DNA of 64,000 nt from Seonamhaeicola sediminis (GTDB lineage: Bacteria; Bacteroidota; Bacteroidia; Flavobacteriales; Flavobacteriaceae). Positions 51,773 to 53,289 of the stretch are shown piece by piece. The DNA is taken from positions 124,001-188,000 of the forward strand of contig NZ_SMZJ02000005.1 of assembly GCF_004358095.2 (NCBI RefSeq), in the 5' to 3' direction. Numbering within the stretch: the first letter of the stretch is position 1; the number at the start of each line of letters is the position of its first letter. The position numbers were made by a program, and so were the translations under genes. The notes beneath the pieces are model-generated. The model was given only the letters and a program-made list of their open reading frames with translations, was not told the origin of the DNA and did no database searches.

Positions 51773-52213
51773 ATGGAGACGCTTCAAGAATTTTTACTTA
51801 AAAAAGGATATACCAAAATAAAATTACACCTTACCAAAACAAATCACTTTGAAATTAAAGCTACCATAAATGGGAAACGAGGGTTGTTTATTTTAGACAC
51901 GGGTGCGTCAAGTTCTTGTGTTGGGTTTGAAAGTGTAGAGACTTTTAAGCTTACTGCCGAAGATTCATCTATTAAAGCAGCAGGTGCAGGTGCCATAGAC
52001 ATGGAGACCAAAATGTCAAAAAAAAATAAAGTTAAAATTGGAAAATGGCGCTATAATAAAATGGTTTTGGTACTGTTTAACTTAACACATGTAAATACGG
52101 CTTTGATTAATCATAATTCTAAACCAGTTGATGGGATTATAGGTGCTGACATATTAAAAAAAGGAAAAGCCATCATAGATTATCAGAAGAAATATTTATA
52201 TTTAAAAGTATAA
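51773..52213 (+). CDS. Retropepsin-like aspartic protease domain protein
   Basis: A 146-residue protein that is almost entirely a single aspartic protease domain of clan AA. The active motif LDTGASSS is at residues 41-48 and the second conserved stretch VDGIIGADIL near residue 122. One copy of the motif means it must work as a homodimer, as in retroviral proteases. There is no signal peptide, so it acts in the cytoplasm or on the inner face. It precedes the response regulator gene by 32 bp and may share its transcript. Confidence 0.82.
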   Translation: METLQEFLLKKGYTKIKLHLTKTNHFEIKATINGKRGLFILDTGASSSCVGFESVETFKLTAEDSSIKAAGAGAIDMETKMSKKNKVKIGKWRYNKMVLVLFNLTHVNTALINHNSKPVDGIIGADILKKGKAIIDYQKKYLYLKV

Positions 52214-52245
52214 CTTAACTACAATTTTCTATCTTTCTGAAACAA

Positions 52246-52887
52246 ATGAATACTTCTATTGTTATTGCAGATGATCATCCATTGATGTTAAGAGGGTTAA
52301 CAGATTTTTTAACTTCAAAAGGATTTAATATATTAGAAAGTACTACCGACGGAAATACCGCTTACAATTTAATTGTTAAATTGAAGCCAGATATTGCTAT
52401 TCTTGATATTAGAATGCCGCATAAGACAGGTTTGGAAATTGCTGAAGATTGCCAAAAAAACAACATACCCACAAAAATTATTTTAATCACTTTTGATAAA
52501 GAAAAAGACATATTTAATCAAGCCAAAAAATTCAATGTATATGGTTATATTCTAAAAGAATTTGCTGTTGAAGAAATTGAAATCTGTATTGAAAACGCAG
52601 TGCTGGGCAAACCTTATTTTAGTGACGAAATTGCTAAATTCTTAAACTACAGCCCTAATGGTAGCCATTTAGAATCTATTAAACTTTTGACGAAATCTGA
52701 ATTAAAAATTGTTAAGCTTATTTCTGAAAATAAAACCAGTAATGATATAGCTCAAGAACTATCAATTTCTGTAAGAACAGTTGATAAACACAGAAGTAAT
52801 ATTGTTGCTAAACTAAGATTAGATAACAAACCAACCTCTCTTTCAATTTGGGCAAATCTTAATAAGTCTAATATAAAAAATACGTAG
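52246..52887 (+). CDS. Orphan NarL/FixJ-type response regulator
   Basis: A 213-residue two-domain regulator. The receiver domain has the acidic pair D9/D10, the phosphorylated D54 (AILDIRMPHK), T82 and K104 (YILKEF), so it should be switched by phosphorylation. The C-terminal LuxR-type helix-turn-helix spans about residues 144-195 (LTKSELKIVKLISENKTSNDIAQELSISVRTVDKHRSN split here by domain, with the recognition helix at TVDKHRSN). No histidine kinase is adjacent. Its stop codon TAG (52885-52887) lies inside a 22-bp palindrome that is repeated 145 bp downstream, each followed by a small-RNA-like unit. This regulator is the natural candidate to bind those palindromes. Confidence 0.93.
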   Translation: MNTSIVIADDHPLMLRGLTDFLTSKGFNILESTTDGNTAYNLIVKLKPDIAILDIRMPHKTGLEIAEDCQKNNIPTKIILITFDKEKDIFNQAKKFNVYGYILKEFAVEEIEICIENAVLGKPYFSDEIAKFLNYSPNGSHLESIKLLTKSELKIVKLISENKTSNDIAQELSISVRTVDKHRSNIVAKLRLDNKPTSLSIWANLNKSNIKNT

Positions 52888-52899
52888 AAGTGCGTATTT
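52878..52899. promoter_or_regulatory. Palindrome 1, candidate response-regulator site
   Basis: AAATACGTA-GAAG-TGCGTATTT: 9-bp arms (one G-T type mismatch to perfect symmetry) around four bases, overlapping the stop codon of the response regulator. It ends exactly 20 bases before the TAnnTTTA box of unit 1, the same as palindrome 2. Confidence 0.6.
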
Positions 52900-52919
52900 C
52901 CTGAACAGGTCTTTTAAAT

Positions 52920-53000
52920 TACCTTTACAATGCTATTAATTAGTTCTTAGGGAGAATTAAGAAAGCTCTGGTATCGTTTTGGCCCAGAGCTTTCGCTTTT
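52920..53000 (+). ncRNA. Candidate small RNA, unit 1
   Basis: TACCTTTA (52920-52927) would be the -7 box, and TGCTATTAA (52931-52939) the start region, giving an RNA of about 65 nt from near 52935. It has a first hairpin (TTAGTTCT 52940-52947 with AGAATTAA 52953-52960) and a terminator hairpin (GAAAGCTCTGG 52961-52971 with CCAGAGCTTTC 52984-52994) followed by GCTTTT. The only open frame is six codons long. Every part recurs in unit 2. Confidence 0.5.
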
Positions 53001-53022
53001 AAAACACACCTCTTAATTTAAA

Positions 53023-53044
53023 AAATACGTACAAGTGCTTATTT
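53023..53044. promoter_or_regulatory. Palindrome 2, second copy of the response-regulator site candidate
   Basis: AAATACGTA-CAAG-TGCTTATTT, differing from palindrome 1 at two positions only. It stands 145 bp downstream of the first and 20 bases before the TAATTTTA box of unit 2. Confidence 0.6.
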
Positions 53045-53064
53045 TATTTCTTATCACTCTATAT

Positions 53065-53155
53065 TAATTTTATACCTGCTATTAAGCTATATAATTCTTT
53101 TTTGAGAGATAGAATTATAATCCAAACTCTGCATATTTTATGTGCAGAGTTTTTC
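53065..53155 (+). ncRNA. Candidate small RNA, unit 2
   Basis: TAATTTTA (53065-53072) is the -7 counterpart and TGCTATTAA (53077-53085) the start region, giving about 75 nt. The first hairpin is TATAATTCT (53090-53098) with AGAATTATA (53111-53119), perfect over 9 bp. The terminator is AAACTCTGCA (53124-53133) with TGCAGAGTTT (53143-53152) plus TTT. No ATG-started frame is present. Compared with unit 1 the stems keep their pairing while bases change, which is the pattern of a conserved RNA structure. Confidence 0.5.
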
Positions 53156-53187
53156 CTAAAACTTAAACTATAAATCAATCTTTTATA

Positions 53188-53289
53188 ATGGAGCAAGACA
53201 ATAGAATTTTGGATAAATGTTGTATAGTGGGATTATCGATAATTGTAGCTATCATTATTACTGTAAATCTTATTACTTGTTTTAGTTAG
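53188..53289 (+). CDS. Possible 33-residue single-helix membrane peptide
   Basis: A short frame, ATG to TAG, encoding a polar start (MEQDNRILDKCC) and one hydrophobic stretch (IVGLSIIVAIIITVNLITCF), like many small membrane proteins. It sits between small-RNA unit 2 and a terminator (53305-53339), so it would be a separate short transcript with no other gene. No Shine-Dalgarno is expected in this group. The coding claim rests only on its start, hydrophobic pattern and position. Confidence 0.45.
   Translation: MEQDNRILDKCCIVGLSIIVAIIITVNLITCFS

Follow-up and report, generated by a model that had tools for sequence, protein, structure and literature searches.

Putative tandem small RNAs behind an orphan response regulator of Flavobacteriaceae: a conserved family with a predicted feedback loop and sister copies beside other regulators

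Behind a response regulator gene of Seonamhaeicola sediminis, two short units follow each other, each headed by a palindrome and closed by a terminator-like hairpin, which raises the question of what these units are, which protein controls them and on which mRNA they might act. The window analysed here is the surrounding stretch of 64,000 nt. The regulator P0001 (52246..52887, + strand; 213 aa in the list of open reading frames) is of the NarL/FixJ type, as it combines a receiver domain with a GerE/LuxR-type helix-turn-helix (Pfam, 8.1e-23 for PF00072, Response_reg, and 1.9e-12 for PF00196, GerE). No kinase was found beside it in the window, in agreement with the preliminary description, which had reported an orphan response regulator with two tandem small-RNA-like units behind it. 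Upstream of the regulator lies a gene for a retropepsin-like aspartyl protease (51773..52213, +; Pfam PF13650), a neighbour that recurs in the loci L193, L194, L196, L227 and L228. Behind the RNA array, a small ORF (53188..53289, +) encodes a 33-aa hydrophobic peptide that has no Pfam match, and a gene for a 2-oxoacid dehydrogenase E2 component (assigned by Pfam, here called odhB) follows as the convergent neighbour.

Both units are arranged in the same order: the palindrome is followed after 20 bases by TAnnTTTA and, past a short gap, by TGCTATTAA, a hairpin and a terminator. The operator-like palindromes are located on the + strand at 52878..52899, where the first overlaps the stop codon of the regulator gene, and at 53023..53044; their arms contain one and two mismatches, respectively, and the pattern that they share matches twice in the window against 0.01 matches expected. 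The 31-nt copies around them are 90% identical and spaced by 145 nt. Exactly 20 bases past each palindrome, the TAnnTTTA element appears as TACCTTTA (52920..52927, +) and TAATTTTA (53065..53072, +), which we take to be -7 boxes of the Bacteroidota promoter type, and the shared TGCTATTAA is found at 52931-52939 and 53077-53085, 31 and 32 bases past the palindromes. All these elements had been described beforehand at the same positions and spacings. Measured to the G of GCTATTA, the coordinates put the palindrome centres 43.5 and 44.5 nt upstream. For an RNA whose 5' end is the T of TGCTATTAA or a base close to it, the palindrome would be centred at about -42, a position that is typical of activators.

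The first putative sRNA (type A, about 70 nt with predicted ends at 52931..53000, +) is delimited by sequence, fold and alignment, and the covariance model R1 matches it at 52930-53001. It consists of a 5' tail TGCTATTAAT, a stem 1 with the loop TTAGGGAG (52940-52960), a terminator (52961-52994) and a T-run (52997-53000). In the second (type B with a GAGAGA loop, about 80 nt, predicted ends 53077..53156, +; sequence and fold, with an R1 match only at E 1.34), stem 1 spans 53090-53119, the terminator 53124-53152 and the T-run 53150-53154. The stems of both units are located where they had originally been placed. The folds are more stable than expected, with z-scores of -3.6 (52930-53005) and -5.3 (53070-53160) and none of 200 shuffled sequences as stable in either case; for a longer stretch of unit 1 (52915-53005) the z-score is -2.2, and 7 of 200 shuffles are as stable.

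This arrangement is not a peculiarity of one species. A scan of species genomes gave 241 stretches with relatives of the regulator, from which the best 80 (63-84% identity) were kept; these belong to flavobacterial genera or uncultured flavobacteria, with one placed only as 'Bacteroidia bacterium'. Units were picked as TAnnTTT[AG] plus GCTATTA within 1300 nt behind the regulator gene, a pattern that misses variants such as the first unit of L038. By this definition, all 80 of these best relatives carry between one and seven units behind the regulator. Including the window, the 81 loci hold 181 units (two in 56 loci, three in 11, one in 9, and four to seven in 5). Within about 440 nt of the last unit, 76 of the 81 loci have a small hydrophobic ORF. 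Among 76 small ORFs picked, six were judged by eye to be chance, which leaves a similar ORF in about 70 of the 80 relatives. In the locus L217 of genome G005, the regulator is cut down to a C-terminal remnant (residues 160-213, 48% identity), and palindrome and first RNA unit are kept. Two regulator orthologues in G033 and G018 (55% and 49% identity) adjoin a TPR histidine kinase (Pfam) and have the palindrome directly before a small hydrophobic ORF, and R1 has no match in these two genomes; in the window, by comparison, no kinase stands beside the regulator and RNA units lie between operator and ORF.

The -7 box belonged to the pattern by which units were picked. The palindrome did not, and it is found with no more than 3 mismatches over 16 positions in 180 of the 181 units of the 80 relatives and the window, as against 3 of 1600 control windows. 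Compared with AATACGTANNNNTACGTATT, 56 units have no mismatch, 77 have one, 40 have two, 7 have three and a single one has five. From its centre to the G of GCTATTA, 162 of these 180 units have a distance of 43.5 nt and the remaining 18 one of 42.5 to 45.5 nt, so the activator-like distance proposed for the window turns out to be conserved. In sequence and geometry, the LuxR-type regulator with an upstream palindrome would fit a response-regulator-driven transcription like that of Csr/Rsm RNAs, and we infer that the regulator at 52246-52887 switches on both units.

With one mismatch allowed, the palindrome occurs at 29 sites in 17 of 36 genomes, compared with one site for the reversed pattern (summed by hand). 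In the S. sediminis genome, a near-perfect copy together with a TAnnTTTA-type box stands before a gene for aconitase B (L201, C48:88738; Pfam); aconitase B was not retained as a member of the regulon, as congeners conserve this copy only in part and no more than 2 of 8 other leaders examined have a recognisable palindrome. A copy with two mismatches is found in the same genome just before another response regulator gene (L033/L203, C34:254325). A second type of response regulator (43% identical) has a large ORF directly upstream and a AATACGTA palindrome right behind its own gene in L224 and L225, and in L225 an RNA-like unit with GCTATTAAT comes after this palindrome.

To judge the units as RNAs, the 181 copies can be divided by their loop into type A (TTAGGGAG, 97 units), type B (GAGAGA, 37 units) and type C (other loops, 47 units). 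In type A, of which 67 of the 97 units were aligned, tail and stem 1 are nearly frozen and the first 28 nt are almost invariant. Covariation had been suggested as a check on the stems, and its outcome is divided. For the terminator it is clear, as 12 of 13 pairs show changes on both sides and 94% of the cells are paired. In stem 1 of type A, there are pairing-keeping changes along with 3 unpaired cells at the outermost pair, and double changes are seen in 1 of 8 pairs; this little covariation is due to the nearly frozen sequence. For the whole type A structure, the covariation is 0.367 compared with 0.223 for shuffled alignments and at most 0.146 when the structure is slid. Folded as single units, stem 1 is among the best 5% of shuffles in 81 of 97 type A units, 3 of 37 type B units and 9 of 47 type C units; for types B and C such folds thus give no clear excess of stability over shuffles, and RNAalifold did not recover stem 1 from the type B alignment. 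The frozen front beside a freely changing terminator points to the first 28 nt as the functional part of the RNA. A conserved seed followed by an intrinsic terminator is also what sibling sRNAs have, with the accessibility of the seed here predicted from folds.

A search of Rfam, to which the preliminary description had pointed with Flavo-1 in mind, gave no family at gathering score in this region. Within the window only two tRNAs elsewhere reach that score, and the 10 matches obtained between 52800 and 53200 at E up to 10 are all far below gathering scores and do not include Flavo-1. The model R1 itself matches 106 of 299 genomes of the family at E 0.01, and 74 of these at 1e-6 or better (hand count). 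Across the phylum, 8 of 296 sampled genomes have a match at 0.001, six of them within the family. The matches L197 and L198 outside the family, as well as L195 and L199 inside it, were set aside as chance terminators beside unrelated genes, and thus no credible copy outside the family was seen in the 296-genome sample; both R1 searches used stricter filters, which lose weak matches.

When scored against four gene starts of the locus, the RNA module is predicted to pair with the leaders of the regulator genes at a mean duplex energy of -16.62 kcal/mol, compared with -12.22 kcal/mol for shuffled sequences (n=80). No such excess is seen at the other starts of the locus, where the corresponding values are -10.14 and -11.67 for odhB (n=55), -11.08 and -11.69 for the protease (n=61) and -11.10 and -11.20 for the small ORF (n=76), and the mean duplex energy along the locus has its minimum at the regulator start. 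The leaders carry ATTAATAGCA-like runs, mostly from -33 to -23, and TCTCCCTAA-like runs, mostly from -14 to -11, which are complementary to tail and loop. A tail complement of at least 8 nt is present in 48 of 81 regulator leaders, compared with 23 of 3879 control tiles taken from these loci. Loop matches of at least 6 nt occur in 34 leaders and 99 tiles, and a tail match of 7 together with a loop match of 6 in 28 leaders and 8 tiles; 22 of the 81 leaders have neither strict element. Leaders with a tail match come from 13 of 21 named genera, and as many of the loci are related, these counts do not represent independent events. Six further regulator orthologues (49-64% identity) likewise give -17.2 compared with -11.68 kcal/mol for shuffled sequences, some of them with the elements in reverse order. 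Among 13 distant regulator loci (L009-L021; 11 leaders), TCCCT or TAATAGC occurs in 8 of the 9 leaders with a downstream GCTATTA and in neither of the two without it (L011, L021). The leaders of PAS-LuxR genes, in turn, give no signal (-11.25 compared with -11.02 kcal/mol, n=24), nor do those of the 221-aa protein and the kinase-regulator pair described below show any duplex signal over shuffled sequences.

The two elements are not arranged as in a plain antisense duplex. When both strict elements are present, the tail complement comes first in 27 of 28 leaders, so that a single continuous duplex would not be formed and pairing at both elements would require either two RNAs or a looped arrangement. 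Loop type and leader also go together, as CTCTC is found in 16 of 37 leaders of GAGAGA-loop loci compared with 3 of 44 elsewhere, and CCCT in 7 of 37 compared with 24 of 44. Since 10 of the 19 CTCTC leaders are from Algibacter, this association may reflect one or few events. Overall, the complementarity in relatives makes the regulator's own mRNA the best-supported candidate target of the RNA tail and loop.

In S. sediminis itself the leader site is degenerate. The element ATCTTTCTGA (52231..52240, +) is a weak, G-U-containing form of the loop-complementary TCTCCCTAA of relatives, its duplex of -11.0 kcal/mol is not above background, and the leader ranks 143rd among 312 sampled gene starts, so feedback may be weak or lost in this species; in the congener G004, the regulator leader ranks 3rd of 312. 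In these rankings some of the 312 starts are counted twice, owing to a stretch that overlaps the window, and each gene is represented by the best of up to three starts. Of the 312 starts in the S. sediminis genome, that of clpX (L302, L329; assigned by Pfam for L302) gives the best duplex with the module, and in G004 it comes second. Genome-wide, the loop antisense TTCTCCCTAA shows no excess over a reversed control in 7 genomes. The tail antisense ATTAATAGCA occurs 57 times in the S. sediminis genome, compared with 9 times for the control, but GCT, ATT and AAT are common codons and the control was not matched in composition, for which reasons this excess was set aside. Among 30 such loci that were inspected, 17 fall within an ORF and 13 between genes, two of the latter near a listed ORF start, as judged by position only.

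The RNA is not confined to the regulator locus. Five R1 matches below 1e-4 exist in the S. sediminis genome, namely the window unit, C12:224548, C48:14105, C48:12839 and C1:731812, so the RNA constitutes a sibling family with several closely related genes in one genome. Two of these sister copies stand behind other LuxR-type regulators and have different palindromes. One regulator is a 256-aa PAS-LuxR protein (GerE, with PAS_3 just over the cut-off), accompanied by AATACTCAAATTGAGTATT, and the other belongs to a kinase-regulator pair (HisKA_3 and HATPase; Response_reg and GerE), accompanied by AATACCCAGAAATGGGTATT. A third sister copy has the palindrome AATACCTAATATTAGGTATT. The copy at C12:224548 (L145/L191) is a full sister RNA without a recognisable palindrome.

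For a wider sample, 40 stretches around R1 hits, mostly away from the regulator locus, were picked by hand; 31 of them hold 35 units of the strict pattern. A PAS-LuxR gene precedes 24 of these units, a regulator of the window type 4, a 221-aa protein 2 and a kinase-regulator pair 1, and the other 4 have none of these before them. Among the 24 PAS-LuxR units, an automatic pick places the palindrome centre at 43.0 in 21 and at 51.5, 51.5 and 47 in the others; for the kinase-regulator unit it gives 43.5, and for the two units of the 221-aa protein 41.5 and 45.0. This protein, in G011, was considered as a further LuxR-type response regulator and rejected, as Pfam gives only a sub-threshold receiver and DUF5932 for it, and no GerE. 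From the operator types found with each regulator and the near-constant centres, it follows that the operator sequence tracks the type of regulator, with RNA module and distance staying constant.

As the regulator mRNA is the best-supported target, we propose a negative feedback loop, in which transcription of the units, binding of the regulator and the direction of regulation are predicted steps, whereas the array, its operator geometry and conservation, the sibling loci and the complementarity in relatives can be read from the sequences. The phosphorylated regulator would bind the two palindromes of the type AAATACGTA-N4-TACGTATTT about 42 nt before the start and thereby activate two promoters, which would yield sRNAs of about 70 and 80 nt. 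Each of these would begin with a single-stranded 5' tail (UGCUAUUAAU), continue with a short hairpin whose loop is rich in purines (UUAGGGAG or GAGAGA) and end in a terminator of its own, and would pair by tail and loop at translation start regions. With the regulator's own mRNA among the targets the loop would be closed, and its strength could grow as the tandem copies (1-7) increase in number. Other regulators, mainly of the LuxR type, have sister copies that contain the same 28-nt module, which would let other signals feed the same RNA output. We consider it likely that the sRNAs activated by the regulator repress this regulator and that other signal systems make the same RNA as well.

Three other explanations have to be weighed against this circuit. 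The sRNAs could act as a decoy for an RNA-binding protein, as RsmY and RsmZ do for CsrA, with the protein bound by the GGGA loop and tandem copies adding capacity. ANGGA is the CsrA motif. It is contained in the frozen hairpin loop UUAGGGAG of type A, and up to seven tandem copies would suit such a role. However, none of 39 genomes gave a CsrA match over the cut-off, with one weak sub-cut-off match in a 300-kb genome, whereas the control matched in 3 of 14. Hfq, the other RNA-binding protein that was looked for, was found in none of 36 genomes, with the control matched in 5 of 14. This is therefore not an Rsm system, and from the parallel drawn in the preliminary description the layout of LuxR-type regulator, palindromes and sister RNAs can be kept, but not the mechanism. 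Moreover, each unit has one hairpin and a terminator instead of the several GGA hairpins expected of titrating Csr/Rsm RNAs, single sister copies exist at other loci, and a decoy would predict no complementarity to the regulator leader. We therefore regard a decoy function as unlikely and have set aside the Rsm type of it.

It is even less probable, in our view, that the units are merely 5' leaders whose terminators govern the gene for the small membrane peptide (53188-53289), without any action in trans. The small hydrophobic ORF behind most arrays would fit such attenuation, and the distant loci L011 and L017 have the palindrome immediately in front of the small ORF, with no RNA in between. 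Several full terminators in series, however, and a promoter-like box for each unit speak against this reading, and the nearly invariant first 28 nt recur at the loci of other regulators, where an ORF follows only 8 of 35 units and by eye looks peptide-like only in L182 and L192, both loci of the window type. We give as little credit to the idea that a repressor or some other LuxR-type regulator recognises the palindromes and that the adjacent regulator does not control the units. The truncated locus of G005 would fit it, since palindrome and RNA persist there with a remnant of the regulator only, and a palindrome of this kind directly follows the gene of the second regulator type as well; yet the operator type goes with the type of the neighbouring regulator, and the position at about -42 is that of an activator.

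Returning to activation by the adjacent regulator and feedback on its mRNA, we lean towards a wider scheme in which different regulators, namely the orphan LuxR-type response regulator, the PAS-LuxR protein, the kinase-regulator pair and perhaps the 221-aa receiver-like protein, would each carry a separate copy of the RNA and, about 43 nt upstream of its shared 28-nt module, a private operator. In these Flavobacteriaceae, apparently without Hfq and CsrA, the RNA would then be a common output line that silences the same mRNAs, including that of the orphan regulator, so that other signals could turn the latter off. Post-transcriptional control is little studied in Flavobacteriaceae, a family described as understudied in the abstract of PMC9723704, and the genomes searched gave no Hfq and no CsrA. 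Here, a widespread and strongly conserved sRNA family without Rfam match comes with a predicted activator, operator, seed and target, which makes it directly testable, and one RNA module under several regulators would, if true, show with unusual clarity how signals converge at the level of RNA. In open-licence PMC text, no paper was recognised as dealing with this sRNA family, and exact sequence strings gave 0 matches.

Several known systems resemble parts of this picture. RsmX, RsmY and RsmZ with GacA combine a LuxR-type response regulator, an upstream palindrome and sister RNAs with GGA-type loops, and this is the likeness to the present units; the difference is that CsrA/RsmA was not found here, that each unit has one short hairpin and a terminator, and that the evidence for a target points to base pairing. 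Vibrio Qrr RNAs stand under a response regulator, and both Qrr and csRNA siblings answer to one regulator. The units described here share with them several siblings per genome and a putative control by a response regulator, but differ in that the operator changes with the regulator beside each copy. The Csr/Rsm siblings are named in the review PMC4211561, whose sibling table also has the streptococcal csRNAs of CiaR and Qrr as sibling sRNAs within one genome, and that siblings may serve different signals was already suggested in this 2014 review. Within the same phylum, passages of PMC11697453 describe FopS of Bacteroides thetaiotaomicron as multicopy paralogous sRNAs with a single-stranded 5' seed and a terminator that pair near start codons, repress susC-type mRNAs and are made from canonical promoters, possibly under an unknown regulator. 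The conserved seed and the terminator are common to FopS and the present family, for which pairing near start codons is likewise predicted, whereas canonical promoters and susC-type targets are given for FopS in these passages and the window matches no Rfam family. Rfp18 of Flavobacterium psychrophilum, compared by its description in PMC9723704 only, is likewise a flavobacterial sRNA with strong predicted structure; its predicted pairing involves a third stem-loop, whereas the units here have two stems each.

A further close parallel is provided by OmrA and OmrB with EnvZ/OmpR in Enterobacterales, which, according to passages of PMC12692685 and PMC4211561, are tandem sisters with a common 5' end that are activated by the response regulator and repress its mRNA. 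The same features are predicted here, and sister sRNAs with feedback on their activator are thus already known. In contrast to OmrA/OmrB, the present system has a NarL/LuxR-type regulator, no Hfq found in the 36 genomes, the array directly behind the regulator gene, up to seven copies and further sister copies beside other regulators. What seems to be new is the family itself, its setting in genomes in which no Hfq or CsrA was found, and a single module that is common to several regulators with private operators at a near-fixed distance.
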